Shown: positions 1-60,377 of the stretch, piece after piece
How positions within the stretch are numbered: position 1 is the first letter of the stretch
Layout: each line of letters begins with the position of its first letter
The notes under the pieces: generated by a model
The model's input: the letters and a program-made list of their open reading frames with translations, nothing else
What the model was told of the DNA's origin: nothing
The model's database searches: none
Translations under genes and position numbers: made by a program
DNA from: a virus
Length of the DNA: 64,000 nucleotides
Virus record (IMG/VR): IMGVR_UViG_3300028423_001110
Location: 1 to 64,000 of that record
Strand: one strand, 5' to 3'

Positions 1-27
1 TTTTCACTGTTAAATCTTTAAATCTGA

Positions 28-857
28 TCATAGTTCGTTATAAATGCTCAGTAGTGTGCTGGTGTCAAATGAGTCTGAATCGATTGCTGTGATTTCTTTA
101 GAAACAATTTCGTCTACGCTTTCGAATGTAGAAATGTCAACATCAGTGGAAATTTCTTCGATCTGTTTTTGCGGAATGAGAGTGATTTCTCTGCAACCGT
201 GCTGCTCGATGTAGGTTTCTTTGATAAAAGAAGCTTCTTCAAAAGATATCGGAAGATCAAGAGTGACTCGAAGATAGCATTTTTCTGTTGCAATAGTTTT
301 TTCAGGATCTAGCAGTTCACTGAGTTTTGCGGTTCTATACTTAGGAGCATCTGGCCAATTAATGTATACCGGCTCTTTGTCGTTCTTTTTGTCAAGAATC
401 ATCATGCCTCGTGCATCGTCCCAGGCATCTGCAAAATTATGCGGAAATGCATTACCAATATAGTGAACCTTGCCTCTCTGCTGACGCTTATGAAAATGAC
501 CAGTGAATACATATTCCTGATGCTGAAAGTGTTCTGCTTTTAATTCGCCGTTGTCTGGCATCTGAACCATTGCGTTCATATAGAAGTGCGGCAGTTCAAA
601 ATGGCCAAACATATAACGTGATTTCATTTTCGCAGCACGTTTCCACTCATCTTCTACTAACCACGGAACCATTGCAACATCGTCTTGTTCAAACAGTTCG
701 TTGATTACTGTAATGCCAGGAATGTGTTTTGCATATTCTACAGAATGCACATCTCTTTTGTCTTTGTAGTACAAATCATGATTTCCTGGAAAATAAAAGA
801 ACTGATCAAATGATGTCCTAGGTGGAGGTCAGTAAATACCGCAGCTTTGTCAAACAT
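28..857 (-). pseudogene. gp47: Recombination endonuclease subunit gp47 (SbcD/Mre11-like), disrupted
   Basis: gp47 is the metallophosphoesterase subunit of the gp46/gp47 nuclease that resects DNA ends for phage recombination. Two parts are visible. From an ATG at 857 the frame reads MFDKAAVFTDLHLG, carrying the first metal motif (DLH). The PGNHDLYYKDKRD motif and the rest of the enzyme, including the later GHFHKRQ metal motif, lie in a different frame down to 28. Only about a dozen residues separate DLHLG from FFYFPGNHD. In the family about 70-80 residues lie there, including the second GD metal motif and an Asn ligand. A segment therefore seems lost around 810-818, out of frame. The N-terminal frame ends at a TAG at 738-740. 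The downstream frame could start at TTG 774, but that product would lack motif I. Natural loss and a sequence or assembly error both fit. gp46 would be expected beyond base 1. Confidence 0.85.
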
Positions 858-865
858 ATGTTACA

Positions 866-893
866 AGTATATGATCTTTAAGTAAAAAGTCAA
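866..893 (-). promoter_or_regulatory. Sigma70-like promoter for gp47
   Basis: On the minus strand TTGACT (893-888) and TATACT (871-866) are separated by 16 bases. The promoter begins just after the stop of the dehydrogenase gene, so gp47 can be transcribed apart from the sugar module. Initiation would fall only a few bases before the ATG at 857, and there is no Shine-Dalgarno sequence, so the message could be leaderless or nearly so. Confidence 0.6.
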
Positions 894-894
894 C

Positions 895-1668
895 CTAAAT
901 GTTATTAAATTTTTTATTATCGGCAATAATAGCGTCTAACAGTGTAAATTTGAGATTTTCGTTTTTCAGTGTTTCGTTAAAACAGTTAAGGTCTTTAGGT
1001 AGACAGCGGCCACCGAAACCTCTAAGTTCTGAATTTACATCTAGATAACAATTAGCAGTCCTTTCAGTTTGAACGAACGCTTCTTTGATATTATTATAAT
1101 TGCAGTCTAGTCTTTCTGCATATTCGTAAAATATATTACCAAATGTTACTTTAAGAGCACTATAACAATTTGTCATATATTTTAAAATTTCTGCCTCAGC
1201 CGCTGACATCTTTTGTTTTACAAAAGGCAAAGAGCCGTGTGCATCTAGTATTTTATTGTAAATTTCAGTATTGTCTGTTCCTACGGCAAGTATTTTTTGA
1301 TTTTTAACAAAATCAACCTCTCCATATTTTTCTCGCAAGAATTCGGGAGTAAAACAGATTTTTAGGTTTTTATGCCGACTAATCATTTTTTCAGTAAACC
1401 CCGGAACAACTGTGCTTTTTATTGCACAAATTCCTTTATAATTTAGATCTTCAAGCTGATTTAGGCAAGTTTCTATTGCATGAGTATCACACGCATTTGA
1501 CGAAGAAAACGGTGTCGGCAGACAAATAAAAATAATTTCTGTATCTAAACAGTTTGTAATTTTGGTATTAAATTTAACATCGTGAACATAAATGTCATGT
1601 TCAATAAATTCAAAGCCTTTTTTTAAAGCTTGGCCTACAGCACCGAGACCAATAATTCCTATTTTCAT
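895..1668 (-). CDS. UDP-glucose/GDP-mannose dehydrogenase family protein, short form
   Basis: Nucleotide-sugar dehydrogenases oxidise UDP- or GDP-hexoses to the uronic acids using two NAD. The start shows the Rossmann motif GIIGLGAVG. Later come the family blocks IFICLPTP (about residue 47), STVVPG, FTPEFLRE, and the catalytic thiolate block GFGGRCLPKDL with Cys near residue 221. At 257 residues the protein stops soon after the central domain. Usual members have 390-440 residues and a C-terminal UDP-binding domain, absent here; the gene ends with an ordinary TAG rather than an obvious frameshift. It is the last gene of the minus-strand sugar module, five bases after the preceding stop. Whether it is active without the C-terminal domain is unknown. 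The family call is firm, the substrate is not. Confidence 0.85.
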   Translation of the reverse strand: MKIGIIGLGAVGQALKKGFEFIEHDIYVHDVKFNTKITNCLDTEIIFICLPTPFSSSNACDTHAIETCLNQLEDLNYKGICAIKSTVVPGFTEKMISRHKNLKICFTPEFLREKYGEVDFVKNQKILAVGTDNTEIYNKILDAHGSLPFVKQKMSAAEAEILKYMTNCYSALKVTFGNIFYEYAERLDCNYNNIKEAFVQTERTANCYLDVNSELRGFGGRCLPKDLNCFNETLKNENLKFTLLDAIIADNKKFNNI

Positions 1669-1673
1669 TTGTC

Positions 1674-2180
1674 CTAGTCCTGTTGAAAAATTCCGGTTAT
1701 TTGAATTGCATAACGATCTTCTAAGCTTAAATTATAAAATGTGTGAATGTCGTCGTTTTTCCAGCCGTACCAATCGCCAGATTTCCAATCAGTAAAAGCT
1801 TGTTTTTCAATTTGACATATTTGTCCAGGAACCCAGTCTTCTAAAAATAACATAATTCGAACGATGTTTTCGTTTTTTAAATTGTGCAGTTCTCTGTATC
1901 TAGTATATAAATCGCCATGCAACGGCAAATATTGTCCCGGAGTAAAAAGATTTATTGCTAGACTTACTTTTTTTAAAAATGTAAATTGGTCTTTAAGTGA
2001 TAAAATTTCAGTTGGAAGATTTTGTTCAAAACAATTGTAGAGATGTAAAGATTGTTCGCAGTGTCCTTTTGACACATACAAAGCATTTTTTTCTTCGCCT
2101 TTATATGAATCTAATTTATAAGGAAAAGTTTTAATCTGTTCTATGTTCCAAGTTGGTTCTATGTGTCCTTGCAATATCAT
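1674..2180 (-). CDS. Putative 2-oxoglutarate/Fe(II) dioxygenase or cupin-like protein
   Basis: A 168-residue protein with a plausible double-stranded beta-helix metal site. LPLHGD gives an HxD pair near residue 103, a distal His lies in DDIHTFYNL near residue 146, and an Arg follows in EDRYAIQITG. The order HxD...H...R matches Fe(II)/2OG oxygenases that hydroxylate peptides, sugars or small molecules. The block RIMLFLEDWVPGQ followed by WKSGDWYGWK is shared with the 150-residue protein at 44886-45338, which lacks the metal ligands. The start overlaps the end of the epimerase gene by about 50 bases, as in a tightly packed operon. The substrate cannot be told, and a non-catalytic cupin is the alternative. 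Confidence 0.5.
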   Translation of the reverse strand: MILQGHIEPTWNIEQIKTFPYKLDSYKGEEKNALYVSKGHCEQSLHLYNCFEQNLPTEILSLKDQFTFLKKVSLAINLFTPGQYLPLHGDLYTRYRELHNLKNENIVRIMLFLEDWVPGQICQIEKQAFTDWKSGDWYGWKNDDIHTFYNLSLEDRYAIQITGIFQQD

Positions 2181-3066
2181 TTTTTAATTCCTCAATAATA
2201 TTTGGTATTATTTCGTCAAATTTTCTAGGAGAGTAATCAGGAAAAACCTGTTTAAGTTTCGAAATATCAGGGCATCGACGTTGACAACTGCCTTGTAAAG
2301 AAGGCTGCATCTCCCATGTTATGTTGTGTATTCCTAAGCTACTTGCAATTACGTTTGCAGCCTCAACAATACTGATTTCTTCTTCGCTTCCTATATTAAT
2401 TATTTCACAGGACAGGTCTTGTATCGAAATCATGGCATCAACGGCATCGTTTACATAACAGAAGCTTCGTGTTTCGTGCCCGCCGATTAAGGTAAAATTA
2501 TTTAGAGAAATCTTATTAATGATATCTCTAATAAAATGACCTTCTCCTGTATTTTCGCTATAAACATTAAAAAATCTAATAATAATATAATTTAAGTTAC
2601 TATTAACTAGATAGTTCTCTGCTTGTATTTTAGGTAACCTGTAACTCCATCGTGGATTATGAATATTTTCAATGAAAGCATCATTGATTTCACTAGACGG
2701 AAACTGCTTTATTCCTGAAATAATTTCGCTACTGCTCCCGTAGATTATTTTTGTGTTAGGATTTTTCTCTGCAAATTTAAAAACCGCCAAATCAACAGTT
2801 GTGTTATTGTATAAAACATCTGTTGGATTTTTATAAAAAGATGTTGTTCCGTTTGTTGCTGCCATATGATAAATTATGTCGAAATTATTTTTGTTACTTT
2901 CTACAAAATTTTTCACATCATCTTGTACAAATTCGCAATTTAACGGTTTTACATTCTTAAAACGCTGATTATTATCGACTCCGATTACTTCATGGTGTGT
3001 TCCTAGTTGTTCACATAATTTTCTTCCAATTAAACCAGCTGCTCCAGTTACTAAAATTTTGCTCAT
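2131..3066 (-). CDS. NAD-dependent epimerase/dehydratase (SDR superfamily)
   Basis: Extended short-chain dehydrogenases of this group epimerise or dehydrate nucleotide-bound sugars. I place the start at the ATG at 3066, which gives MSKILVTGAAGLIG and puts the NAD-binding GxxGxxG at residues 8-14. An upstream in-frame ATG at 3093 would overlap the preceding gene. The catalytic set is visible: Ser in the IIYGSSSE block near residue 111, then Y142-RLP-K146 (YxxxK). IIRFFNVY and a substrate-site Arg in HETRSF follow, as in UDP-glucose 4-epimerases and dTDP-glucose dehydratases. The length of 311 residues is normal. It lies in the sugar module between a glycosyltransferase-like gene (one-base gap) and the dioxygenase-like gene. 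The exact reaction is not resolved. Confidence 0.88.
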   Translation of the reverse strand: MSKILVTGAAGLIGRKLCEQLGTHHEVIGVDNNQRFKNVKPLNCEFVQDDVKNFVESNKNNFDIIYHMAATNGTTSFYKNPTDVLYNNTTVDLAVFKFAEKNPNTKIIYGSSSEIISGIKQFPSSEINDAFIENIHNPRWSYRLPKIQAENYLVNSNLNYIIIRFFNVYSENTGEGHFIRDIINKISLNNFTLIGGHETRSFCYVNDAVDAMISIQDLSCEIINIGSEEEISIVEAANVIASSLGIHNITWEMQPSLQGSCQRRCPDISKLKQVFPDYSPRKFDEIIPNIIEELKNDIARTHRTNLEHRTD

Positions 3067-3067
3067 A

Positions 3068-4303
3068 TTATATTCCGTTATGTAATCTTCCATTTATGTT
3101 AAACAAAAAATGATCTATTTTTGTTAGACTATGTGTATTTGTAATCATAGTATTAAAATTATGAATAAGCTTTGATTTATTTTTAAAACGCCATTCTATC
3201 CTTTCAGCAGGAGATTGATTCTTTAATTTGTCAACTACTTGTTTTATTGATTTAAGTAACTTTTCATATCTTTTAATTGGATCCTTCTCCATATCGAAAC
3301 TTAGGTCAAACCAGTCATCATACAGTTTGTATCCGTAAGATTTTAGATAATGATTACAATACCTTTGACCGTAGATTACAAATGGTTGAAAGTTTTCGAT
3401 CGGGCGAAAAGTCTTTTCGCTGAAAAAAAGAGAAGTATTATTATAGTCTTCTACTTCGGTTTCATTTACAATTTGAAAGATTGTATCGCTGTGAATTTTT
3501 TTATAGTCAAAATCAGGCAACGCCCAATTTTTGTCGAAGTCTAATCGATCAATTATTAAAGGTAATTTGTTATTCCAATTGAGTACTTTATTTTCTTGAA
3601 CTTTGTCTAGAAGATTTTCGTCTCTAAACCATTGTAGTAACAGAGTTTTAGGGATCGCATCATGACTTATATTTGCATATCTTGCAATGTCTGAATCACA
3701 AAGAAAATAAGTTCCAATTGTTCGATATTTTCTATTTTTTCTACTTAAACTTGAAAAAATTCTGTCTTTATGGTCAGTTTGGCAATCAATATAAGCTGTT
3801 TCAAATCTCTCTTCAGTTGTTTTTTGATAAATGTCGTTTATTCTAGTGTTAAAGTTTCTTTCAAAGAACGGATAACAAAAAACATTCAGCGGCTCGAGAT
3901 TTTTTTTATTTAAAAATTTTTTTAAGTTTTCTAAATCATAGAGATTACTTGTGATATAGATAATATTTTTTGGAGAAACAGAGTATCTTTGACAATTAAA
4001 ATATAAAAAATCAAAATAGGGCACTTGGTATGGACTAAATCCCTCATTACCAAAATCTAGAAGAAAAAGTGCATTTCCTTGTTGTAATTCTAATAAGACT
4101 TCTTTTTTTAGATATTGAAATATATCAGTGTCTTTATTCCATTTAGTATACTTTGTTGAACTATAAATTAGTTTTTTATTTTTTAAATAAGTAAGTGATT
4201 TTTTATTTTTTTTGTAAGATTCTAAAAAGAGATCTCCGGTCGGAGTGCAAAAATTACACTGTGTAAATTCATTCTCAAGAAAACAATTAAGCAAAAGTTG
4301 CAT
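3068..4303 (-). CDS. Putative glycosyltransferase of the SEKTFRP family
   Basis: A 411-residue protein, first gene of the sugar module and one base after the gp55 stop. Its hallmark is a C-terminal block: IVNETEVED, then FFSEKTFRPIENFQPFVIYG, then LKSYGYKLYDDWFDLSFD. The same layout occurs at 42544-43722 (closest, also sharing SLSRKNRR and VSPKNI/VSPKKV blocks), 43676-44893 and 46979-47968. The Glu-Lys-Thr/Ser and Arg block resembles the donor-site region of GT-B fucosyl/exostosin-like transferases, and the sugar-gene setting supports that reading, but no family is assigned with certainty. The N-terminal half contains FLLDFGNEG and an unrelated-looking Rossmann-like stretch. No signal peptide or membrane segment is evident, so it should act in the infected cell's cytoplasm. 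Confidence 0.5.
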   Translation of the reverse strand: MQLLLNCFLENEFTQCNFCTPTGDLFLESYKKNKKSLTYLKNKKLIYSSTKYTKWNKDTDIFQYLKKEVLLELQQGNALFLLDFGNEGFSPYQVPYFDFLYFNCQRYSVSPKNIIYITSNLYDLENLKKFLNKKNLEPLNVFCYPFFERNFNTRINDIYQKTTEERFETAYIDCQTDHKDRIFSSLSRKNRKYRTIGTYFLCDSDIARYANISHDAIPKTLLLQWFRDENLLDKVQENKVLNWNNKLPLIIDRLDFDKNWALPDFDYKKIHSDTIFQIVNETEVEDYNNTSLFFSEKTFRPIENFQPFVIYGQRYCNHYLKSYGYKLYDDWFDLSFDMEKDPIKRYEKLLKSIKQVVDKLKNQSPAERIEWRFKNKSKLIHNFNTMITNTHSLTKIDHFLFNINGRLHNGI

Positions 4304-4304
4304 T

Positions 4305-5141
4305 TTAAATAGAATCTTTATTATTATATTCGCTTTCTCTTCTCATTGCAGTTTCCCATTCGTTATTATGAGTTCTAGTATAAGAAGGATTAAGATCGTT
4401 CATTTCAAGAATATCGTCTCGAATGTTCTGGTTTTTCTTTTCAATGTTGATAATTCTCACAAAAGAGTTAGTAACTGCTGCTGTGTAATAGGCAAATGGA
4501 TTGTTTGATTTGGATTCGTCAAACTGTAAGCCAATCTGCGAAAGCTGAAGAATAGCCTGTCCTTTCATCTCGTCATTGTATGTATAACCTCTAACGTTGC
4601 CTTTTGTGGCATAACGATCTACCAGTTTCAACCACATACGAGCTAATTTGTCTGTAGCTTGTCCTTTTGACTTAGAAAATTCGCCAGTGTCTACATCGCC
4701 CGACCAGTGTGATTTTCCTACACAAACAAGGTTGTCGTTTTCATCAAACTTCCAATGCTGGAATGGCGGAAAGTTCAGTTTTACTTTTGTGTCAGCTACA
4801 GTCTTAGGATTCTTTTTTCTGCCTGGTTCTTCCGGAATATGATCAAATGTCATTACTCGAAAAATTAATTCACCTTTTGTAATCTTTTTATAATCTATTT
4901 CGCAGTCTGCCTGTTTTACTTTTTCGCCCGCCTGTTTTCTAGTTTCAAAATCTGCCTGAGATAGACGTTTTGCTTTGTTTCGCTTTGCCTCAGCAATCGT
5001 GCGTATGTTAATGCGATCAAGTGATGTAAGTATTATGTCGTACCGATGATATTCGGGCTGTGTGAAAGAACAAAATGTAGTTTTTGATTTGTGTATTTCT
5101 GCTAATAAATCTTTGTTGTTAAGGTAATTAACTTTCCTCAA
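4305..5141 (-). CDS. gp55: Late-transcription sigma factor gp55
   Basis: gp55 redirects host RNA polymerase to phage late promoters (TATAAATA-type -10 boxes without a -35). The C-terminal half carries the sigma-region-2-like segment, including NVRGYTYNDEMKGQAILQLS, FAYYTAAVTNSFVRI and a basic NIEKKNQNIRDDIL stretch, closely like marine T4-like gp55 proteins. At 278 residues it is longer than T4 gp55 (185). The additional N-terminal part (about residues 1-150) includes a basic stretch and a PEEPGRKKNPK linker. It has its own strong sigma70-like promoter. Downstream, a sugar module follows after one base and would be co-transcribed. The late-type boxes found in this window are its expected targets. 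Confidence 0.85.
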   Translation of the reverse strand: MRKVNYLNNKDLLAEIHKSKTTFCSFTQPEYHRYDIILTSLDRINIRTIAEAKRNKAKRLSQADFETRKQAGEKVKQADCEIDYKKITKGELIFRVMTFDHIPEEPGRKKNPKTVADTKVKLNFPPFQHWKFDENDNLVCVGKSHWSGDVDTGEFSKSKGQATDKLARMWLKLVDRYATKGNVRGYTYNDEMKGQAILQLSQIGLQFDESKSNNPFAYYTAAVTNSFVRIINIEKKNQNIRDDILEMNDLNPSYTRTHNNEWETAMRRESEYNNKDSI

Positions 5142-13900: not shown

Positions 13901-14458
13901 AGTAGTGATAACTTATTCATTAGTTTTGGCCAAGAATTAAATAAAATTAAAACAATTAGTGATGAAATAATTTATCATTCTGCCAAATATAAAATTTTAT
14001 TTGGAAATAAGGCAACCTCAGATTTGCAAGCAACTTTTAAAATAGTCAAAAGTAAAGACATTGTTATCAACGATAACGACTTAAAGTCAAGAGTGATAAG
14101 CACTATTAACAGATTTTTTGCTCTTGAAAACTGGGATTTTGGTGATAACTTTTATTTCTCTGAACTTGCAAGTTTTGTCATGGCCGAGCTTTCGCCGGAC
14201 ATAATTACATTTGTTATAGTTCCTGTGCAACCTGATCAAAGTTTTGGATCTCTTTATGAAATTAAAGCAGAATCAGATGAAATTTTTATTAGTGCTGCAA
14301 CTGTAGAAGATATCGATATTATAGATGAAATTACAGCAAATCGACTAAATGCCGATGGAAATGTAATAACATCTGCTAGATCTATTAATTCTGGTATACA
14401 AAGTGCAGACGATAATCCCCTAACAATAGGAGGCCCTTCTACTAATGGCTTACAATAA
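10997..14458 (+). CDS. gp6: Baseplate wedge subunit gp6
   Basis: gp6 makes the continuous ring that ties the baseplate wedges together. The N-terminus has the conserved segments TEDWKRIYQSFRNAEFQSYDF, YLALIDMIAYLGQNISFRID and NARENFLELAERRESVLRLA (residues about 13-105), diagnostic for gp6. The length of 1153 residues is much greater than the 660 of T4 gp6, which is usual in marine relatives. The extension includes a calcium-loop-like DSDDDGVVDDPE near residue 813. The C-terminal part with SRVISTINRFFALENWDFGDNF resembles the gp6 dimerisation end. The stop overlaps the start of the next gene by 14 bases. Confidence 0.85.
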   Translation: MSSTDRQNRLLVTEDWKRIYQSFRNAEFQSYDFDNLRRTMINYLRENYPEDFNDYIESSEYLALIDMIAYLGQNISFRIDLNARENFLELAERRESVLRLARLLSYNPKRNQASNGLLKITAVSTTEEVSDSNNLNLRNRTIIWNDPANSNWNEQFDRVINAALSVNAKIGNPVKQENINGVTTQQYKLNSASRQVPVYGFTKNVDGRSVNFEVVSTGITNDSIVEEAPLPNRRFGFLYRNDGQGPSSTNTGYFSHFRQGVLDFGNFSVTNPSSNQVVAIDQRNINNSDVWLYSVNENGVEQKLWTKVDSVEGNNIIYNSIEKNQRDIYSVLTRIEDRISLIFADGTFGNLPQGSFRVYYRSSVNSRLFITPSDMRGIVVRIPYISRTGNAETLAISYSLEYTVVNGSTTETSANIKSRAPSTYYTQNRMVTGEDYQVAPLSISQEIVKAKAVNRTSSGISRYFDLIDATGKYSSTNLFGTDGALFKDFLDVKQSLNFENLTDIEGEIVNTVQPILKDRRLNNFYLDQFPLVSVRDLNNSWQQKTADTNQSTGNFIDLNGDDVRLGNFTESNMKFVKLNSLLKFEAPDGFHFLNGELIQGEPDFRGGSLYKWSKVVSIVNDGTSVQENEFGSVILNDVIPTGAKIVDIRTPLPNALVQNVESQAINEIFNLRTFGLRYDQNIGEWQIVSQNNLNIIDDFSTGKTGDTTGQQLDSSWLLLFETDGEKYTITYRSLRYIFESDREIRFYFDSTEKIFNNKSGKTVKDKVTVLGINTQPDTTEPFNKDFDWEVTKEFRNENGYVDSKKIEISFFDSDDDGVVDDPEIFDQVVNETQNIQDKLVFLRKEESQDGLIDYVFVSPEEINVEILQSKNSGVITSNYSDGQLFYFIEQDIFENLNRNTGNFTINTSFRAKIGRSGIKFHYIHNADENARIDPSASNIIDIYLLTRQYDTQFRLFLDDAIIDKPLPASSDNLFISFGQELNKIKTISDEIIYHSAKYKILFGNKATSDLQATFKIVKSKDIVINDNDLKSRVISTINRFFALENWDFGDNFYFSELASFVMAELSPDIITFVIVPVQPDQSFGSLYEIKAESDEIFISAATVEDIDIIDEITANRLNADGNVITSARSINSGIQSADDNPLTIGGPSTNGLQ

Positions 14459-17400
14459 CGATCAGCAAGAGTATCCATTACCAGACGGTTCCGACGATCG
14501 TAGAAGAAGCTCTCAGCATCTTCCTAGATACTTTAGAACAGAAGTTAACAATAAATTTTTATCTAGTACAATGGATCAAATGATCCAACCGGGCGTAGTA
14601 GAAAATCTAAATGGATACATTGGTCGTAAAGAAGCAAAAGCATTTAAATCAGATGATTTTTATTTAGGTGACATTAGTAAGCAACGCGACGATTATCAAT
14701 TGGAGCCTGCATCGATAATTCAAGATAATTTAGGAAATATAACTTTTTATAAGGACTATAACGATTATAGAAACCAATTAAAAAATTTAGAAAACTCCAA
14801 TCTAAACGATAGTATTATTAATCAACAAGAATACTATGCATGGAATCCTCATGTTGATTGGGATAAACTTGTTAACTTTAGAGAATATTATTGGCTACCA
14901 AACGGTCCTGATCCGATACCAATTACAGGTAATCGAACCAATATTGCTACAACTTATACTGTAAATAATGTCGATAATTTGGATAATCGCGGTTTTGTTT
15001 TTTCTCCTGACGGGTTAACTCAAAACCCAGAATTAACATTATATCGAGGAATAACTTATAGATTTGAAATAGATTCTCCCAATCTTCCGATTAGTATAAG
15101 AACAAATAGAATCGTTGCTCCAAATTGGCGTCCAGGAACTTATTATTTAGAAGGAGAAAGTGTTCAATTTAATGGACAAATTTTTACTGCTGAAGTTCCG
15201 CATAGAGCAGTTAGCCCTCTTTCAGACTTAACAAATTCAACAATAGACGAATTATTTGAGTTAGATAGAGAGAAATGGAATTTAGATAATTCATTTAATC
15301 TTGTAAAAGAAATTTCTAAACAAAACGTAGAAAACGGAACAATTGAATTAACATTAGGTCCAGAAACACCTGATTTTCTCTATTATCTTTCTAATGAAGA
15401 TATTAATGCCGGCGGCCTAATTAGAGTCTATGATATTGATCAAGCATCTTTTCTTAATATTGAACAAGAAATATTAGGTAAAAAAACATATACCACTACT
15501 AATGGGTTCTCGCTTTCAAATGGTATGAAAGTGTATTTTCAAGGTTCTACTTTTCCAGAAAAATTTCAAGAAGGAAATTATTATGTAGAAGGAGTTGGAG
15601 AATTTATTAGTTTAATTACAGAAGAAAATTTAACACTAACTACGGCATTTGTAGAAGATGAATTTGTTGAATTTGATTCTGAAGGTTTTGATACCACACC
15701 TTTTTCTAGAAGTATCGGATTTCCGCGAGAAAAAGATTATCTTACTATAAACAGATCTTCTCAAGACGGAAATTTGTGGTCTAAGTACAATAGATGGTTC
15801 CATAGAGAAATTATAGAGACTGCTGCTAGAATTAATCAAACCGGTTTAGAATTAGATCAAAATCAACGAGCAATTCGACCTATAATAGAGTTTGAGCCAA
15901 ATATTAGGTTATTTAATTTTGGAACGATCGCTAAACAGCCAGTAGATTTGGTTGACAACTTTACAACCGATGTGTTTTCGACGGTCGAAGGCAGTCAGGG
16001 CTACAACATCGACGGAGTAAATCTACAAAATGGTATGCGGGTTCTTTTCACAGCTGACACCGATCAAAGGGTCAGATCAAAGATTTATCGAGTCAATTTT
16101 ATTAATTTTCAAAATAATAGACAAATTGCTCTTACTGAAACAGACGATTCAGAACCGCTAACCAACGAAGTAGTACTATGCGGACAAGGTACTACATTTG
16201 GCGGAAGAAATTTATTTTTTAACGGTGTTGAATGGAAGTTAGCCCAAGAAAAAAGAAGTGTGAACCAAGCTCCGTTATTTGAAGTTTATAACTGTTCAGG
16301 AGATAGTTTAGCTGATCCAGAAATTTACGAAGCAACTATTTTTAATGGAACTGAGATTTTTTCTTACAGAGTTAACAATAATGGAATAGTTGATTCTGAA
16401 TTAGGATTTCCTCTTTCTTACAGAAATATTGAAAATGTAGGCGATATTGTATTTGAGTTTGATTTGTTAAAAGACGCAGCTACTTACTGTCCTGAAGGAA
16501 GCCAGGTTTTGCAAGAACCAGCCGGATTAGGTGTTTTGCATCAGTATAAGAATCGTACCGAATTTGATGCAGTTAACGGTTGGAAAATTGCAGATAATTT
16601 TAGTGATCAGCGAGTAATTAGACAGTTTGTTGCAGTACAGGATGATGTTTTCTTTCCTATTGATATGTACGACGAAAGCGGGTTGTTAACTGATCTTGAA
16701 TTAAATATTACGGTAAACAATAAATTTCAAATACAAGGGTCAGACTATCAAATAGTTAATAATACTAGAAACACTGCGTTTGTGCAGTTCTTTAACGGAT
16801 TAAACGAAAATGATATTGTTTTAATTAAGGCAAAATCAAAAGCACCTAAAAATAACAACGGCTTATATGAAATTCCTTCAAATCTAGAAAAGAATCCTCT
16901 TAATGAAAATCTAGGAGATTTAACTCTCGGAGAAATTAATGATCATGCTAGAAGTATTGTTGAAGAAATAGAAAACTTTTCTGGAGAGTTTCCAGGAATA
17001 AGCAATTTAAGAGATCAACAAAACATTTCTAAATTTGGTAAAAGAATTATTAAGCACTCTGCTCCATTAAATTTAGCTTTGTTTCACTTGGTTGACAAAG
17101 ATGCAAACTTAGTAAAAGCATTACGTTTTGCAAAAAACGAGTATGCAAAATTTAAAAGAAATTTCCTACAAGTTGCATTTGATTTAGGATTTAACGGAGA
17201 TGTAAAAAAACATGTCGATTTGATCCTTAAAGAAGTTAATCGTTACAAAAATAATTCAGATCCGTTTTACTTTTCAGATATGCTTGCATATCGAGGAGAA
17301 AAAGTAGCACAATTTGAAATTGAATCAGACCAACAAAAATTCTTTAGTTTAATAGAACCTTTTAGTCTAAATGAAGTAAATGATAAAGCAGTTTATGTTT

Positions 17401-20400
17401 ATCTTAATCGTAAACAACTTCTTTTTGCAGTTGATTATACGTTTAATTCTGAAGGATTCTTGGTATTAGATTGTGAAATAAAACGCGGCGACGTATTAGA
17501 AATATGTGAATATGAATCTACAAATGGATCATTTATTCCTCCTACGCCGACTAAATTAGGTTTATATCCTCTCTCAACTCCGGAAAAATTAATTGACGAT
17601 ACCTATTTAGAAACACAAGAAATAATTCAGGGCCACGACGGAAGCAAGATTTTGGCTTTTGGAGACTTTAGAGACGATCTTCTTTTAGAACTAGAATACA
17701 GAATTTTTAATAATATTAAAGTAACATACGATAAAGAACTGTTTAACATTAATGAATTTGTGCCTAGTATCTTTTCGAATACTAGTTTAACACAAGAACA
17801 AATTGAAAATACTATGTTAAATGAATTTGTCGAGTGGACCGAACTTATTGACGAAGAGTATTCAGAGAATCGATTCTATAATAGACAAAATCCGTTTACT
17901 TATAATTACACTGGTTCAAGTAACTATCTTAATCAGCCAGTTAGCGGTTATTGGCGTGCAATTTATAAAAATGCCTTTGACACTGACAGGCCCCATTCTC
18001 ATCCTTGGGAAATGCTAGGATTTACTAGCAAGCCTGCATGGTGGGAAGATCAATACGGCCCTGCACCTTATACGAAAGATAACTTAATTTTATGGGAAGA
18101 TCTAGAAGAAGGAATAATAAGGGAATCAGGAAACGTACCTATTGCAATAGATAGATACAAAAGACCAGGATTAACTTCTGCGCTTCCGGTTGACAATGAA
18201 GGCAATTTAGTTGCTCCGTTAACTTCGGGTTATATCCAAGATTATAATCCAAATAATTTTAGTAAAATTTTTAAATTTGGAGACCAAGGACCGGTAGAAA
18301 CAGCCTGGAGACGTTCTTCTGAATACCCATTTGCGCTGCTGCTTTCTCTGTTTATTAATCAACCAAACAGAATTATGGCTGTTTGTTTTGACAGAATACG
18401 GCAACAGAGAAGTATTGCAGGAGAAATAATATATAATGAACCTAATCAGCATATTCAATTAAGCAAGTTAGTATTTCCTAATTCTATAAATGACAACGAA
18501 AAGATTTTTTCTTCTGGCCTAGTAAATTACATGCGAGACTATTTGTCGTCGTCTGTTTCGGCAAATTACAACGAATATAAAAACAAACTCAGGTCTATTA
18601 ATAATAAAATAGGATTTAAGTTAGGAGGGTTTACTAGCAAAGATAAATTTAATGTAATACTAGATTCTAGAACCCCGACAAACCAAGGCAATGTTTTTAT
18701 TCCAGAAGAAAATTATAAAATTTTTCTTAATCAAAGCAGTCCTGTAGAAAACATTTTTTATAGTGGTGTAATAATAGAAAAACAGCCTGAAGGATTTGTA
18801 ATAAAAGGCTACAATAAACAACGTCCGTTTTTTATTTTTAATCGCCCGTTAGATTCTCGATCTAATCCTAGTGTAAATGTTGGAGGTATTTCTGAAGTAC
18901 CGACTCAGTGGGAACAAAATATATTTGTAACACGGGGTATTGCAATACAGTTTGAAGGTTCATTTTATAGAGTCTCGGTATCGCATAATACAGGAACAGT
19001 ATTCGACGAAACAAAATTTGTTAAAATCCCCAAACTTCCTATTACCGGAGGCCGAGATGCAATTTTCAAAAGAAAATTTAATACCCAAGAAACAAGAGTA
19101 CCATACGGTACTCTTTTACCAACTATTCAAGACGTAGTCGATTTCCTATTAGGTTATCAAAATTATTTAGAGTCTAAAGGTTTTATATTTGATTATTACA
19201 ATAATGATACAGGTTTTGTTGCAAACTGGGAAACTTCGGCTAAAGAATTTATGTTTTGGACTACACAAAACTGGAGCGCAGGGACTGTTTTAGCTCTTTC
19301 TCCTGTTGCTGAGAGATTAAAGTTTAGATCAGAATTTTCAGTAGTAGATGATATCTATGATACGTTTTATGGCTATAGCCTATTAAAAGTAGACGGAAAT
19401 AAATTTTCTCCAGAGTTTGTGAGTTTGACACGAGAAGAGCCTAATTTCTTTGAAATACGGCCAAAAGCAACTGCCGATGGCATTTTTGCAGTAAGATTAT
19501 CTCTTGTTCAAAAGGAACATGTTTTTGTAATAGATAATAAAACTTCATTTAACGATATAATTTATGATCAAATTCCTGGATATAGGCAAGAAAGAGTAAA
19601 GGTTCTTGGATATAGAACAGCAAACTGGGACGGCTCGTTTAACACTCCTGGATTTATTTTTGATAATGCTGTAGTTACCGAGTGGCAACCGTGGAAAGAC
19701 TACGCAATCGGCGACACAGTCAAATACAAAGAATTATATTATGCTGCAAAAAATAGAATACCAGGATCGCCGGTTTTTAATTCTGAAGAATGGACGTTGC
19801 TTACCGAAAGACCGACTCCGCAGTTGTTACCTAACTGGGAATATAAAACAAATCAGTTTGCAGATTTTTACGATTTAGACAGCGATAACTTTGACGAAGA
19901 ACAACAAAAATTTGCTCAACACCTAATCGGATATCAGAATAGAGATTATCTAGCGAATATCATCAATGATGATGTTTCCCAATACAAATTTTATCAAGGT
20001 TTTATACAAGATAAAGGAACTTCGAACGCATTGTTAAAACTATTTGACGTTCTCGGGAATGCAAATAAAGAAAGTTTAGAATTTTATGAAGAATGGGCCA
20101 TAAAAGCAGGCCAATATGGTGCTTCACAGGGGTTTAAAGAAGTACAATACAAATTAGACGAAACTCAATTTAACGCATCTCCTCAGCCAATTGAGTTAAC
20201 TAATTCTCAAATTGCAAAAAATGATTTAGTTTATCGTATACCTTCCTACGAGGTTTTCTTGAAAAATGAAGGGTACGATCATAAACCGTTTCCAGAAAAG
20301 AAAATCGAAAATTATTTTTTAAAAACTAGCGGATATGTTAATCCAGAAGATATAAACTTTAAAGTAGATCAGTATGCTGATATCTTGAATATTAATTTTC

Positions 20401-23400
20401 AAGATTTAAATTTTTCTGATATTGTCTGGATCGGAAACGAAAACAATACCTGGAATATTTATACTGTTGTAAGAACAGATATCACAATTGAATTAATAGA
20501 AACCGGAACAAACGGATATAGATTATATCTTGATACTACTAATTTTAATTTTGAAATTGGAGAAATAATAGGCGTTTATAATCAATCCAGCATTGAAGGT
20601 TTGTATCAAATTGATGATATTAAAAATAATTATTTACTAATTTCTGTAGAAAACCCGATAGATCTACCCGGAGAAAAATTTAATGGTAAAATCTATAAGT
20701 TTGTATCTACAAGATTCGAAAACGAAGCAAGTATAAATGCTCAAACAAAAAATATAGAAAACGGTATACAGACAGTTTGGGTTGATAACATCGATAATGA
20801 TTGGAAAGTTTTACAACGAAATAAAGTTTTTAGCCAAAATGGTATAATTTCTCAAGAAGAAAGCGAACTCGGTACAAATTTTGCAACTTCTTTTGATGTG
20901 AACGATCGAAATACTGTGTTGGTTGTTGGAGAACCGGACCGCCAAGACGGACAAGTCTGTGTATATACACGACCTTCGCCTACTTCAACCTTTAGCCTTG
21001 TTGAGACTTTAGAATTACCTAACAATATTGCTGATAGCTTTCCTCGATTCGGCGCAAGCGTTGCAATTTCGCAGAATGGTGACTATCTTGCTATCGGATC
21101 GCCTAATGCTTCAAATGTAAAAACTGCTTTTCGAGATGATTTTATTGAAAGTAACGACTATGCTGCTGGCGAAATAGTAAGATATCAAGACAATTTATGG
21201 CAAGCATTAACTGATATTAACGGTTCTATTTCTAATGTAATTTTCGGATCGTTTGCATCGGTTCTACAGTCTCGAATCGATTTGAATTTGATCGACGAAG
21301 ATGATAAAGAAATCCCGATTTTACTAACAGCAAACTATCCTTTTCAAAATATTGAAGTAGCAAATCAAAGTCATATATTAGTACGAGCACCGGTTGATAT
21401 GTATGACGGATCTGCAATAGGAGACAAGGTTGTTTTAAAATGGAACACACTTTCATATGCATATCAGAATAATAACGAGCTAACGCCAGTTGAGCCGTTC
21501 AATAATGAGATACAAGGTTTAGACTCTGAATTAATAACAAGAGAACACACAATTGCAGAAAAAGTAGATATTATTTTACATATTCAAAATGCTACTACCG
21601 TACCGACAGTTGGACAAACAGTTAATAGTCTTAATGCGTTCGGAACAGTTTCGTATGCCTATAATGAAGGCTCCGAAGTAACTTTGTATATTGCAGACCA
21701 AAACGGTAATTTTGGTCTTGTTGGTTCTTTAATTACCGAACTAGGAGAATTTGTAGGTGAATATAATACTGCTGCACCAATAAATGAAATTAGAGACATA
21801 GAAAATTATTGGGGAGGCTTTTGGAAAATTGATTTAGATTTTTCGTATACTATCGAAGATAAAACCAGAGACGAAGGACTAGGACTTGTCTATACAAATC
21901 TAATTACCGAGTTTAGCCAACAAGACACAGACTCGGATTACTATAACATATTAGATTATTCTACAAATATTTCGTCTAGTCTTGATACTCGTTATAGTGA
22001 AATTATTTCTCTTCCAAACAATGAATCCAACCTTGACGAAGAAGATCTTTATCTTATACGAGCTCCTAAAGAGGTAAGTGATGAATTATCTTCAGGAGAC
22101 CAAATTACTTTATTTTACAATAACATTCCGTCTTTTGATTCACAAAATTTTATAGACACAAATAACATAGGACTTTCGCCTGAAGAACTTAATCGTACTC
22201 ATAATGTATTAGATCTGTGGGACGGATATATTGTTATCAATGCAACAGAGGTTATCAATGACGTGCCAGTTATCCCTAAAGTTGGATTAATTGTGCAAGA
22301 CGTCACAAATGGCGGCACGGCTGAAATTGTCTTTGTTGAAAATGTAAGAAATATTAGATGGATACTCTATGTTAAAGAAGTACAAGGAAGATGGGCACTA
22401 GGTAGCGAGTTTGGAGAACCTAGGCAAATAGAATTTTTAAGCGACGGATCAGGCGATTCGATTTATGATCCAGCTTTAGGACAACAGCTTCTAGGTATTA
22501 TTCTATCAAGAAGTCTTGGATTACCAGAAGAAGGCATAGGAAAACTTTTGGTATTTGATAAAAAAGATCAAATTCCCTTTTCAAATGAAGAAGCCGGTAG
22601 CATTTTAGATGCTGAATATTGGTTCTATACCGAAAAAGAAGTTGCAGGAAGAGCACGTCCTGCAGAATTTCCTAGCGAAGCTAGTAATAATTGGCAGCAA
22701 GTTTTTAATATTCCAGCCGGTGCCGGCGGAACAAGTAGCGGACTGCAAAACGAAGGTTTATTTTCGATTTATAAAAGAACAGGAACGTCGCAATGGAGTA
22801 TTATAGATCACTTTATTGTTCCGCAACGTCATAATAATAGCAAACTAGGATATGATTTAGAATTTGCAGAAATTAATGACATAATTAAACTTTTTGTTCG
22901 TGCTAAAGGAGAAAATGTTTTTGATTCGTCGGAAACCGACTATGGCAGATTATTTGTAATTAAAAATGGCATTGAAAACGGATATAATTATAATTGGGAA
23001 ATCGGCCGAGATAAGCAGTACAAAGGAGAATTTACAAACACTAGAAAATACTTTGAAAATGATATTGTGTTTGTAGAAGGACAATTATATCAAGCAAAAA
23101 CTAATATTGATCCCGAAAGTTTTGATTTTAATGATTGGGAATTACTAGACCGTGCTAGAGATTATTTAGGATTTTTACCAAACGATACGTCTCTTGTTTT
23201 TGAAAGCGACATAGACAATATTATTGATCTTGAAAATCTTCAAGAATTTGCCTTTGAATTTTCTGTTTCTAAAAACGGCGAAGTCTTAGTTATTGCTTTA
23301 CAATATAATAACGAACCTAACCGGGTTGTTATCTATCGCAATCTAAATGGCTTATACATTAAAACTCAAGAAATATTTGCAGAAACTTCTGAACAAAATT

Positions 23401-26400
23401 TTGGAGCTACGCTAGATATAAATGAAGAAGGAAATATGCTTGCTATAGGATCACCTACAGAAGATATTGAAACAATGAACGACGGTGCAGTTTTCATTTA
23501 TAAACAAATTAACAAGGACTTTGAAATAGATCAAATTGTTTTCAGTCCAATCCAAGACAAAAACGAACAGTTTGGATATGAAGTTTCATTAAGCAATGAC
23601 ATTGTTGCAATTACTTCTAAGAACGGAGATTCTCAAATTGACACTACGTTTGATTCTGGAGAAACTAGTTTTGATAACTCCTTTACAAAATTTGTCGATT
23701 TTAACGAAAATACTGGAGTAGTTCACTTATATGAAAAAGTAGGCAATAAATTTGTCTATGGCGAAACTGTTGATTTTGAAGATAGCAGTGTTCGATACTT
23801 CGGCCGCAATATAAAAATTAAAAATAATCAATTGTATGTCGGACTTCCAGACCTCCAATATTCAGGATTAAAAGAAGGAATCTTAATTAATTTTTATAAA
23901 AAGCCCGGTGCAAGTCTTTGGAATGTGTTAAGAGAATCAAAATCAACAGTCGATGTTAATAAAATTAAAAAGATTTTCTTGTACAATACAGTAACAAACA
24001 AATTAATAAACTACCTAGATTACATTGATCCTCTCCAAGGCAAAATTGCAGGCATTGCAGAACAGGAAATAGATTTTAAATTATATTATGATCCTGCTGT
24101 ATATACGGTCGGTTCGAATGTCAATATAGATAAAACAAATTTTTGGGGAGAAGATCAAGTTGGAAAAATTTGGTGGGATTTAACCAAAGCCAAATTTATA
24201 TATCCTTATCAAAATAGTACTACATTTAGTGCAAATAATTGGAATAATATTTTTTCTGATTTTAATGAAATAGAAGTTTACGAATGGGTTGAATCGGATA
24301 TACCTCCTTCTAGATGGGATGAACTAAGTGGAACTGCTTCTGGAATTTCTCAAAGTATTAGCGGTAATACCAAATACGGCGATAATGCATTTGTGCAAAA
24401 AAGAACATATGACAGAACAAGTAAAACTTTTGGAGAAAAATTTTATTATTGGGTAAAAAACAAAATTACAGTTCCGAACACCGAAAACAGAAATTTGTCA
24501 GCACAGGACATTTCAAAATTAATTCAAGATCCAGCCGGGCAAGGATATAGATTTGTAAGTTTAATAAGTCCTACAGAGTTTGCTCTGTACAATTGTAATT
24601 CTTTGATTCAAAATGACGACATTGCTGTTAGTTTTCAAGTATACACAATCGACGATCAGAGAATTAATGTACATGATCAATATCAAATTATTACAGAAGG
24701 ATTAGAAACCAGTCGACCTAAAAAGGATATCGAACAAAAATGGTTTGATAGTTTAATTGGCTATGACGAACAACGAAGGCTTGTACCGGCATTAGAATTA
24801 TCTGAAAAAGAAAAATACGGTATTTTAAATAGACCAAGACAAAGTTGGTTTATTAACAGAGTCGAAGCTTTAAAACAAGCAATTGATCGAGTTAATCGAG
24901 TACTAGAAAATACTTTACTTGTTAATGATAAAGATTTATCAAACCTAGAACAAGAACAGGAACCACCTTCCTTTGTCACTAATTTATATGATGTTGAAGT
25001 TGAATCTAAACTTGATTTGCAATTTATTGGAACAGCAAGACTTAGACAAGCAAAATTAAATCCAATATTCGAAAACGGCCAACTTATAGATGTGCAAATT
25101 CTAGATTCTGGAAGAGGATATATTGTGCCTCCGACAGTAGAAATTAGAGGTACTGGCTCAGGAGCAGAAGTTAAACTATCGATTAACAATCAAGGAGAAG
25201 TAGTTAATACAGAGATAGTAGAAAGAGGTCGAAATTATAATCAAAATTCTCTTCTCAATGTTCGGCGTTTTTCTGTTTTAGTTAGAAATGACGAAACACT
25301 AGGAGGTCGGTGGTCGCTATACGAAAGAGACTATGTTGCAAGTTCATGGTTCAGAACAAACAGCCAAGGTTACAATGTTAAAAGATATTGGGAATATAAA
25401 GATTGGTATGCTGCAGGAGTTAATCAATTTACAAACATTGATTGGACTGTTTCTGAAATTTATGAATTAAGTAACATCGACGACGAAATTAGAGATATTA
25501 TTAAAGTAGATAATATTGGTTCAGGCGGTTGGATCCTTCTACAAAAAATTGATAATCAGCCAAACGCAGATTTTACAGTTAATTATTCAACAATTGGTCA
25601 GCAAAACGGAACTATTCAATTTAAATCTAGTTTATACGATATAGAAGAAAATCTAGCAGGATTTGATGTTACTGCTTTTGATAATCTTAATTTTGACTCG
25701 TTACCGTCTATAGAAACAAGAATTATTCTCGAAACTATAAGAGATAATATTTTTATAGATGAATTGTCTATCGAATATAATAAACTTTTCTTTTCAAGTT
25801 TGAGATATGTATTTTCTGAACAAAATTATGTAGATTGGGCGTTTAAAACTAGTTTTATAAAAGCACGTCATAATGTTGGAGAGTTAGAACAAAGAATTAC
25901 TTTCCGCAACGATAACTTGCAAAATTTTGAAGATTATTTCAATGAAGTAAAACCTTATAAAAGTAATGTTAGAGAGTACTTGTCGGCCTATGATAAGTTA
26001 GACAACAGCCGAACATTAAATACAGATTTTGATTTATCGCCTATATATTCTAATTTTGAAAATCGAATCCGCCCTATAGATGTTAAAGTATCAAACAATA
26101 GTATTGCTGTTACAGACCCCGCTATAAATCTTTATCCTAATAAAAACTGGCTCGATAATGTGGGATTTTCGTTAGAAAAAATTGAAATAGCAGATCCCGG
26201 ATTTGGCTACACAACTAGACCGATTGTGTTTATCTCTGGCGGAGGCGGAACTGGAGCAGAGGCAACTGCATCGCTTGGCCGCAACGGTATAATTAAGTCG
26301 ATCACAGTTACTAATCCTGGCCAAGGCTACATAAGTACACCTGAAATTTCTATAAATGGATCGTTAGCAGATGGAGGAAGACCTGCTGCTGCGTCTGCTT

Positions 26401-29400
26401 ATCTAGGTAATTCGCTAATTAGAACTATTAAAAGTACGGTCAAATTTGATAGAGTTTCGGGTGACTTTTATTACACCGACCTAGAAACTTCAGAAAATTT
26501 TATAGGATCAGGAAATCGAAGATTATTTGAACTAGAATGGCCGTTAGATACTAGAAAAAATCAGATATCTGTTTTTGTTAATAATCAACTTGTGTTAACA
26601 GGTTCGTACACATTTTCTAATCAACTAGATAAAACCAAAGGTTATGACCGATATAAAGGTCAAATCTTTTTCGACGAACCTCCCGCACGCAATTCAGAAG
26701 TTCGTATAATTTACAACAAAAATATTTCATTACTCGATGCACAAGATAGAATTAACTTTTTTTATAATCTAGGAAACACAGAGTTCGACAAGCCTCTTGG
26801 CCAATTAATAGATGGTGTAGATTATGGAGGAGTAGAAGTAACAAGCTTTGATTTCGACCAAGTCACCGGATGGGACACACAGCCTTGGGCATCTGCTCCT
26901 TGGGACATTTTTGATAATACGTTTGAAGATGAAATATTTTACAAAAAAGTAGTTGTTTTAGAATTAGAAAATTCTGTAACTTTACAGCAGAATACTATTA
27001 TTAGTCAAGATAGCACGGGTGCTACAGGCAGAGTAATATCTACAGTAGAAAACAGCACTGAAGTTAAATTATCATGTAATATAGGAGAGATATTTAATAC
27101 TATTGACGAGATTAGATTTGATGATAGTACAGTAGCTGACAGTAGTATAAGCGTACCTATAAATGTAACTACAGAACCCTTTGAGCTTGCAAAGCCTTTA
27201 GAAGACGGAGTGGAATATAATCTTTATAAAATTACACGAAATAAAGTCGGGTCGGTATTGCGTAATATTAGATTAGATGATCCTAATTATGACGGAAGCA
27301 CTATACTAGACAACGATGCAATAATAGAACCGATTATCGGAGATGGAGAAAGAACAACGCTAGATGCAGATGAAATTGGCATAGATCTTTCCTTAAATGA
27401 AGATGAAACTAGTGCGTCGATTATTCTTAGAAAATCTACAAGCGACGGTTCCATATCACTAGACGAAGATTCTTACGACACAGATTTGAGTGGAGGAGAT
27501 TTATCTTATTCTAGTGCCACGGGTATTTTGGCCGAAGATATAAATTTCGACGGCGACGGATTTGTAACTACTACTACATCTAAAGGTCCGGAAGAAGTAG
27601 TTCCGGGTCAAATTATTGACACACTAGACATTACAGTCTATGAGAATCCGATTGAAGGATCTAGCAATATTGTTTCAAGAAATTATATCGGAAACGGAGT
27701 TAAAACCAATTTCGACATTGGAACTTACCCTATTAGTCAAAAAAATGTTTTTGTTAAATTAGATAATATTATACAAACACAAGATAATTATACAATTAAC
27801 TACACAAATAAAGAAATTGTGTTTACAACTCCGCCTGCAACCAATTCTAGAATTAATATTATTGTTTTACAAGAAAGTTCTACAGAAATACTAGAAGTAA
27901 AACAATTTAAAACTAACAAACTTACTAGCAACTTTGAATTGGATCAAAAATATAAGACAGAGCTAGATGCTTTTGTAACAGTTAATGGTATCGAAGAGTC
28001 CTTTACGATATCTAACGAATCGCTAGAAAAAACAATTATAACAACAGCTACACCGGTTAATTCAAATAGAATTGTAACTGTTATATTAACTAATAAAGGC
28101 GAATCTATAAGAAATTACAGTATTGTCGAAGTTAATGAATTTGAAGCTGACGGTAGCACTATAGATTTTACATTAGATAACAATATATTTGTACAGCAGC
28201 CTGCACAAGCATTTAGTTTAGTAAAAGTTAATAACACTATTTTAAGTCCTGGTTATAGCCAAAGATTTTTTGTTAACAACGAGAATAGATACCAGTTAGA
28301 TCTTACTCAAGTTCCTGTAGGATCAGTAAATGGATACGAAATAGAAGTTTACTTAAATGGACGATTATTAGAACAATCGTTAGAATGGAATTTTGAAGGT
28401 GCAGGCGGATTTGATTCGTCTATTGACGATAGCCAGCCCGGAAGTGTTCTTTTCTTAAAACCTGGTACTGCTGAAATTGGTGACGAACTGAAGGTACATA
28501 TTATTTCAGGAGGCGAATATCGATTTGGTTTCTTTGACCAAGACAATAGGTTTAATCCGCAAAGAGGAGAAGACTCAACACTTCCGGTACTTCACTTAGA
28601 CCAAGCTTTTCAGCCTGGAGATAATATAACTGTTTATACATTTAGTAATCATAATTCGCAAGGCATAGAAAGGCAAGTGCTTGAAGTGTTAGAAAAAACA
28701 CAAACAAAAATTAACACTCCGGAATATTTTGAATTCCAAAGATTAACAAAAGGTAAAATTAAATTAAGAAAACAGGCTTTTAGTGTTGATTGGGTTTGGC
28801 TAATTCAAAACGGAACTTTATTATCACCTAGTGTTGATTATAATCTTACAATAGATAAAAAATACATACAAATGATAGAGCCTCCTAAAGAAGGCGATGT
28901 ACTTGATATTATTCATTTTTCGGCCAATCCAACTAATCCTTCGTTTGGCTGGAGACAATTTAAAGATATGCTCAATAGGGTACATTATAAAAAACTAAGT
29001 TCTAGTTTTACACTTGCAACTGATTTACACTATTACGACAAAGTTATTGTTGTAGAAAATGCAGATAGCTTACCAGACCCTAGAAAAAATTCAAGACAAC
29101 CGGGTGTTATCTTTTTAGATAAAGAAAGAATTGAATATTTTATAAAAGACGGAAACGAGCTAAAGCAGTTAAGAAGAGGAACACTGGGCACAGGAGTAAA
29201 ACAGGTTTATTCCGCAGGAACGCAATTTGTAGAACAAGGTAATGTACACAATATTCCATATAAAGATGATACACAGACAGTACAGTTTGTCGGCGACGGC
29301 ACATCAAATACGTTCGAGTTACCGTTCGAAGTTCCTAGTGTTGACTATATAGAAGTGTTTGTAGCAGGAAAGAGGCTTTGTAAATTTGAACAGTCTATTT

Positions 29401-39412: not shown

Positions 39413-40307
39413 TACGATAAAAATAGTCGAACAAGATATAATATTTTTATCATACGACGAGCCAAATGCTGAAAAAAATTTTGCAGACCTTTGCCAAAAA
39501 ATTCCTTGGGCAAAAAGAGTTCATGGAGTAAAAGGATCAGACGCTGCACATAAAGCCTGTGCAGATTTATCTGAAACAGAGAATTTTGTTACAGTCGACG
39601 GCGATAATGTAATTGATCCAGATTTTCTTAACTTAAAAATTGACGTAGATGAACTTGGGTTAACAAAAGAACATGTATTTTCTTGGTGCGGAAAGATACA
39701 CGTGAATGGGTTAATGTACGGCAACGGCGGCCTTAAATTATGGAACAAAGATTTTGTAACAAACATGAAAACCCATGAAAATTCAGATAAAAATGACACA
39801 CCGAGTTTAGTTGAATTTTGTTTTGATAACAGATACTATCAATTTAATGAAAATTATTCTACTTCATTTACAAACGAGTCTCCTTTTCAAGCTTGGAGAG
39901 CGGGCTTTAGAGAAGGGGTAAAAATGAGCCTCGATCAAGGGAAAAAAGTAAGTTATATTAACTCAATTTGGTGGCAGAATTACGAACGTCTTCTTATTTG
40001 GTCTTCGATAGGTGCAGACGTAAAAAATGGCTTATGGAGCATTTATGGCGCTAGAGAAGGTTGTTATCTCACAAATTGCACAGACTGGGATTACACACAA
40101 GTACGAGATTTTGAATATTTAACAGAAAAATGGAACGAAAATTACCCAAAAATTTCTGAATCAGAGCTAAGAGATAAAATCGAAAGCGTGGGAGAAAAGC
40201 TTTCTAAAGAACTAAATTTAAATATCGAAACACTTACAGAAAAAGGTAGTAAATTTTTTAAAAAAGTTTATCATAATACACCTAGAATAATAAAGGCAGC
40301 AAAATGA
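39405..40307 (+). CDS. Putative GT-A-like transferase with VDGD motif
   Basis: I start at the ATG at 39405 (MNNTIKIVEQ), preceded by AAAAGGA; an upstream in-frame ATG at 39375 lies inside the previous gene. The 300-residue protein reads IIFLSYDEPNAEKNF, then AKRVHGVKGSDAAHKAC, then FVTVDGDNVID, a nucleotide-sugar-binding order with the acidic VDGD near residue 67 replacing the classic DxD. YGNGGLKLW and SPFQAWRAGFREGVK follow. The same domain forms the C-terminal 226 residues of the protein at 49975-51858. This looks like a small transferase family common in marine phages; the reaction is not known. Confidence 0.55.
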   Translation: MNNTIKIVEQDIIFLSYDEPNAEKNFADLCQKIPWAKRVHGVKGSDAAHKACADLSETENFVTVDGDNVIDPDFLNLKIDVDELGLTKEHVFSWCGKIHVNGLMYGNGGLKLWNKDFVTNMKTHENSDKNDTPSLVEFCFDNRYYQFNENYSTSFTNESPFQAWRAGFREGVKMSLDQGKKVSYINSIWWQNYERLLIWSSIGADVKNGLWSIYGAREGCYLTNCTDWDYTQVRDFEYLTEKWNENYPKISESELRDKIESVGEKLSKELNLNIETLTEKGSKFFKKVYHNTPRIIKAAK

Positions 40308-60089: not shown

Positions 60090-60377
60090 CTAATACTTTA
60101 GATATGGACACCCTAAAGTGAATAATGAAAGTTCTTTTGGGTCTTCAAATCCTATTTTAATTACTTTAATTTCTTTATTGTTTTTATCTAATTCGTAAAT
60201 CTGTCCCACATAAAATCGGCCTTTTAAATTTTTTTCAATCCATCTAACAATAGTTTGCTCAAGATTATACCTCCGCATTTCGATAGTAATATATTCAAAA
60301 TGCGGTGGTGGAACTTTTAGCTGTCTAATTCCGTAAAAGTTTAACGGATTAACCTTCTTAGATCTATTGCTAAGCAT
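60090..60377 (-). CDS. Small conserved phage protein, unknown function
   Basis: A 95-residue protein from the ATG at 60377 (MLSNRSKKVNPLNFYGIRQL), overlapping the stop of the VWA gene by 8 bases. A longer frame from 60530 would run against that gene and is rejected. PPPHFEYITIEMRRYN and IVRWIEKNLKGRFYVG stretches suggest a small mixed alpha/beta fold. Such a partner gene directly after the VWA gene is the usual order, which makes a role with it plausible, though untested. Confidence 0.55.
   Translation of the reverse strand: MLSNRSKKVNPLNFYGIRQLKVPPPHFEYITIEMRRYNLEQTIVRWIEKNLKGRFYVGQIYELDKNNKEIKVIKIGFEDPKELSLFTLGCPYLKY

Follow-up and report, generated by a model that had tools for sequence, protein, structure and literature searches.

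The gp47 locus and its lesion

Does the broken gp47 gene at the start of this viral sequence represent a shortened but working form of a T4-type nuclease subunit, a loss that has been fixed in its lineage, or an accident of one molecule or of its assembly? The window, that is, the whole stretch of 64,000 nucleotides that was analysed, comes from a virus fragment record of 66,781 bases, and the following features are found at its start.

1..31, minus strand: first 10 codons of gp46 (MIRFKDLTVK), truncated by the record end (the intact gp46 of the relative L164 matches phrog_77, E = 7.8e-105)
28..814, minus strand: gp47 3' remnant (SFDQFFYFPGNHD ... IYNEL), 260 codons, open from 810, with its stop at 28-30 (phrog_100, E = 1.1e-45)
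28..774, minus strand: longest ORF remaining in the gp47 frame, 248 aa from a TTG start (ORF list)
738..857, minus strand: out-of-frame stub ORF of 39 aa, produced by the deletion (ORF list)
814..815, minus strand: deletion junction, 181 nt absent (gene nt 44-224 of L001 and L164; single-deletion scan)
815..857, minus strand: gp47 5' remnant, from the start codon to the first base of codon 15 (MFDKAAVFTDLHLG, with the DLH of metal motif I; comparison with L001)

The minus-strand ORF from 857 to 738 reads MFDKAAVFTDLHLGHHLISS... and then stops; it begins at the gp47 start codon in the frame of MFDKAAVFTDLHLG, reaches the join at 815/814, and continues as nonsense to the stop at 738. The stretch FDQFFYFPGNHD... 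lies in a different frame, open from 810 to 31, and it is in this other frame that the real continuation of gp47, SFDQFFYFPGNHDLYYKDK..., runs for 260 residues. The identity given in the original prediction is borne out by homology of this 3' part, both to phrog_100 and, with 46.7% identity, to gp47 of Pseudomonas phage PA5oct. The same prediction held that some 150-200 bases had been lost out of frame between intact flanks, and the comparison with relatives agrees on each point. L001 (IMGVR_UViG_3300027784_000046), which ranked best among the relatives in the first scan, has an intact gp47 of 336 aa and matches the window on both sides of the join, with 95% identity over 81 nt upstream, covering the promoter and the gene start, and 86.9% over 822 nt past it, where the encoded protein is 92% identical. 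When all single deletions of 175-187 nt were scanned against the two intact relatives, L001 and L164, one identical best model was obtained with each, in which 181 nt (59 codons plus 4 nt) are gone, codons 16-74 being wholly lost and codons 15 and 75 partly. The stub differs from L001 at three positions, each synonymous. Moreover, the gene order gp55-gp47-gp46 is kept, with gp55 upstream past a cassette and the start of gp46 at the record end, about 800 nt from the join.

What the missing segment encodes

In L001, DLHLG (residues 10-14) and FFYFPGNHD (80-88) are separated by 65 residues, which is close to the 70-80 expected beforehand. Motif II (GD-HHNRN), already suspected to be lost, is encoded within the missing 181 nt and is absent from the window gp47; its G49-D50 and H53-N54-R55-N56 do not vary among 30 aligned relatives, and 25 invariant columns, from K16 to G74 and including D50, disappear with the segment in this alignment of 30 sequences. 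Metal motif I (DxH) is present as DLH in the stub, in a frame that differs from that of the rest of the gene, and GNHD, GHFE, and GHFH, which we take to be metal motifs III-V in the numbering of the family, are present in the open frame 810-31. The 248-aa ORF starts past the GNHD motif and therefore contains none of motifs I-III. In an AlphaFold2 model of the intact L001 gp47 (mean pLDDT 73, with block means of 79-98 over residues 11-80), the lost piece holds helix 15-18, helix 20-39, strand 44-47, and nearly all of helix 60-76, and a helix-strand-helix of the predicted nuclease core (residues 15-76) is thus removed. Judging from the family, proper metal binding is not to be expected of a gp47 product that lacks this piece, and we infer that the enzyme is dead and the allele null, in keeping with the non-functional subunit that had been proposed.

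The two remnants could nevertheless be thought to work together, gp47 being expressed in a shortened form through programmed recoding, either from an internal start or by a -1 shift close to the join. In favour of this, the remnants are both conserved, and DLHLG would be connected to SFDQFFYFPGNHD by a -1 shift; however, the fused product would still be without 59-60 residues, among them the 25 columns invariant in the 30 relatives, D50 included, and without the helix-strand-helix of the predicted core, and no in-frame X XXY YYZ slippery heptamer was seen by eye at the junction. The strong conservation of the remnants is instead explained by the recent date of the lesion (see below), and the probability that recoding operates here seems almost negligible. 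Rescue by frameshift or internal start was rejected, as the site does not encode motif II, and the ribosomal frameshifting with an alternate start that had been offered as a way out is in effect excluded, the missing residues not being there to be read.

The gap is not a feature of the family

Among 157 loci compared, 156 have a gp47 match, L090 alone being without one, and 149 are continuous through residues 12-120, while in 7 a locus or contig end truncates the match. With 22 loci that repeat a contig merged by hand, 127 of 134 distinct contigs are continuous, and with two further contigs, L164 (continuous) and L163 (cut by its own contig start), the final tally becomes 128 of 136 relative contigs that cross the site without a break, the remaining 8 being cut by contig or locus ends; these continuity counts leave out L081-L083, which are the window's own record. 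In 6 loci there are 1-2 gap positions somewhere in the gp47 match, and the matches are still continuous. A family-wide gap at this site is rejected by the final tally, and the comparison with related gp47 genes called for at the outset thus shows that the gap is not normal.

In GenBank phages, 2,102 records match L001 gp47, and 59 of 60 sampled down the ranking align in a single piece from residue 10 or earlier to residue 211 or later; the exception, MN342150.1, is aligned only from residue 117 onward. The junction and the exact flanks of the window had no match in exact scans of IMG/VR viral contigs, scans which may omit very near records, and a control pattern common to the window and L001 matched three contigs there: L162 (the L001 contig) and L164, both intact, and L163, continuous as far as it extends. 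A scan of GTDB genome contigs found no relatives. The lesion is private to the window among the sequences compared.

Selection and age of the lesion

The 260 codons past the break have remained under ordinary purifying selection and contain no stop, with a dN/dS of 0.061 between the window and L001, 0.048 with L164, and 0.059 with L163, against 0.044-0.062 among these intact relatives. Eight more distant relatives served as outgroups for assigning the changes to branches: the window branch received 35 synonymous and 7 nonsynonymous, that of L001 28 and 15, respectively, and 15 changes were ambiguous. Relative to three close relatives, the window has 8 private residues, 7 of which occur in at least one of four deeper relatives, and L001, L164, and L163 have 7, 4, and 4. 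Counted per base, unique nonsynonymous changes number 7 in the window versus 2, 2, and 6, and 3 of the 7 fall in codon 251, whose residue is not unique to the window. The window carries 18 unique synonymous changes, and nonsynonymous sites outnumber synonymous ones about fourfold (627/153), so that tens of private residues would be expected after a prolonged neutral phase. The lack of decay in the remaining gene, together with the synonymous-only changes of the stub, thus indicates that the lesion is either very young or not real, and gp47 would have been functional until very near the present. A loss this recent would not be fixed in the phage lineage, and the lesion is therefore, we infer, no fixed feature of it.

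This bears directly on the possibility that the loss is both real and fixed, gp47 having been abandoned and its work taken over by the SbcCD of the host or by another phage nuclease. The record is clean and of good coding density, and the large foreign cassette that adjoins gp47, not found in the relatives compared, implies that the locus has been rearranged, both of which would suit such a loss. However, 260 codons fully under purifying selection and without a stop do not, and gp47 is present in a single copy in the 66,781-base record, itself a fragment, where a phrog_100 search matched only the lesioned copy and a PF00149 search for a replacement metallophosphoesterase gave no match. Furthermore, Gp46/Gp47 are said to appear critical for the resection of double-strand breaks in T4 recombination (PMC3016280). 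A fixed loss is accordingly improbable, and the replacement elsewhere that had been envisaged gains no support from the fragment record.

The gp55-gp47 gap as an insertion site

Upstream of the gp47 start codon, the following features are found.

866..893, minus strand: sigma-70-like promoter, TTGACT-16-TATACT, 10 of 12 matches, both hexamers identical in L001 (promoter scan, weak alone, with 4 sites found versus 2.0 ± 1.4 in shuffles)
895..4303, minus strand: cassette of four genes (UDP-sugar dehydrogenase, unknown, nucleotide-sugar epimerase, unknown), absent from the relatives compared
4305..5141, minus strand: late sigma factor of the gp55 type, normally found right beside gp47 (phrog_12791, E = 6.3e-77)

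The genes for gp55 and gp47 lie at most 200 nt apart in 129 of the 131 contigs where both could be placed (a count in which loci repeating a contig were likewise merged by hand, and which leaves out L081-L083, L161, and L162), and they are side by side in L164. In L001 and L006 the gap measures 1,766 nt and contains a single ORF of 581 and 578 aa, respectively (L001 988-2733 and L006 979-2715), which matches the homing-endonuclease family phrog_3339 (E = 1.6e-124 and 1.2e-106) and also DUF7487. In the window the gap is 3.4 kb long and holds the four genes instead of the homing-endonuclease ORF, and no blast match was found between the cassette and the L001 and L006 inserts. Homology to L001 picks up again immediately before the gp47 promoter, at base 895, the last base of the final stop codon of the cassette. 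The space between gp55 and gp47 is an insertion site.

In both the window (855-893) and L001 (2732-2775), the gp47 ATG lies 8 nt past the end of the -10 hexamer TATACT, with no visible Shine-Dalgarno sequence, so the gp47 mRNA may be nearly leaderless in the two; most of the other relatives shown have a GGAG/AGGA-like site before gp47, and the start codons of 76 relatives are TTG in 49, GTG in 14, and ATG in 13. The dehydrogenase of the cassette (895-1668, 257 aa) is accompanied by a second gene of the UDP-glucose/GDP-mannose dehydrogenase type at 47965-49188 (407 aa), and both match in their N-terminal and central domains, with no C-terminal match among those listed. Elsewhere, the window contains a single ORF of 5,055 aa at 14445-29612, for which CBM_5_12 was the sole Pfam match of the three pieces searched, three radical-SAM-like genes (40304-41704, 51809-52819, and 52806-54650), and a DUF2201 metallopeptidase/VWA-like protein (60370-61632) adjoining a phrog_1297 ATPase (61720-63036), a pair that resembles MoxR-VWA modules.

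The insertion site, 80 bases from the join, is what underlies a further reading, in which the lesion would be the scar of a double-strand break made near motif I by a free-standing homing endonuclease targeting gp47 and then joined illegitimately. We know of no cleavage site for the phrog_3339 enzyme of L001 and L006, whose gene sits exactly between gp55 and gp47 in both. According to a review (PMC2988022), free-standing homing enzymes cut hundreds or thousands of bases away from their own genes, conserved sequences tend to be the targets of homing endonucleases and introns, and illegitimate break repair in T4 is marked by microhomology junctions and extensive degradation, an account that would fit such a scar. 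Nevertheless, the window has no homing-endonuclease gene at the gp55-gp47 site and its join has no microhomology in exact register, and an origin of this kind is quite unlikely. The fuller scenario, in which a homing endonuclease spreading through the gp55-gp47 gap cuts the active-site motif of gp47 and the phage, bearing a donor-less repair scar, survives at least briefly with no Mre11-type nuclease of its own, seems slightly less likely still.

Chimeric join or fresh deletion

An ordinary T4-type gp47, an SbcD/Mre11-like nuclease subunit, would have lost 181 nt in one step, with almost no homology at the join. Most likely this is either a chimeric join, created close to the end of the contig while the library was prepared or the reads were assembled, or a defective genome that is rare or has only just arisen. 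It is probable that we are dealing with a private null allele of this kind, the product of a single 181-nt loss that is very recent or artefactual, with the rest of the gene undecayed. Between an artefact and a fresh real deletion the balance is roughly even, and both remain among the explanations first considered, namely assembly error and recent real deletion.

On the side of an artefact stand the privacy of the lesion, selection acting up to the tip of the branch, the distance of some 800 nt to the record end, and the lack of microhomology in exact register. The record is clean elsewhere, with 98.4% in stop-free runs of at least 90 codons, the 5,055-aa ORF among them, and general indel error is thereby dismissed as the cause. 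A real molecule is favoured by the fact that a De Bruijn assembler normally needs spanning reads to make a join. Moreover, the 6-nt repeat CTAGGA occurs at L001 gene nt 37-42 and 217-222, the first copy corresponding to 816-821 in the window, and it is the sole repeat of at least 6 nt at spacings of 178-184 in L001. A comparable repeat within one base of register is found for 0.9% of random L001 breakpoint pairs, and the position of the join beside the CTAGGA pair thus hints at a biological deletion. Microhomology had been anticipated near 810-818, and the pair bears this out in part; its copies are 180 nt apart, which puts them out of register by one base relative to the loss of 181 nt. Deletion mediated simply by this repeat was rejected, since a spacing of 180 nt would preserve the frame and alone cannot yield the observed join. 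A DNA hairpin spanning the deleted stretch was unremarkable (z -1.51), and a literature search on gp47 loss, chimeric assembly, and Vsr-like homing enzymes returned nothing bearing on the lesion of the window.

The break in gp47 happened by accident very recently or arose in sequence assembly, and it is not new biology. Whether a null allele private to one fragment or an error in its assembly, the lesion carries little weight alone, and its main use is as a caution against annotating a split or minimal gp47 at this locus. If reads showed the lesion to be true in most copies, the window would represent a T4-like phage that lives with no Mre11-type nuclease of its own, while the gp55-gp47 gap would become a place for studying damage by homing endonucleases.

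Comparison with known systems

The window gene resembles the T4-like gp47 of the Mre11/SbcD family (phrog_100, to which the intact L001 protein belongs with E = 1.4e-69) in the 92% identity of its 3' part to L001 and in its neighbours gp55 and gp46, and differs from it in that the 181 nt with motif II are gone and the frame is broken. The AlphaFold2 model of L001 gp47 matches E. coli SbcCD (6s6v_B, E = 3.1e-12, TM 0.55/0.49) and many other Mre11 chains, and the sequence motifs align with 2q8u/4o24 (E about 0.007). In contrast to the solved structures of E. coli SbcD and Thermotoga/Pyrococcus Mre11, the window remnants have no stretch that could supply the motif-II strand. The gp47 of Escherichia phage vB_EcoM_3HA11 (MN342150.1, Kuttervirus), a phage isolate record, is also disrupted and is annotated as two CDSs. 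However, the change in that phage (L161 621-2250) is a partial internal duplication, in which the second CDS repeats more than 100 residues of the first, whereas that of the window is a deletion.
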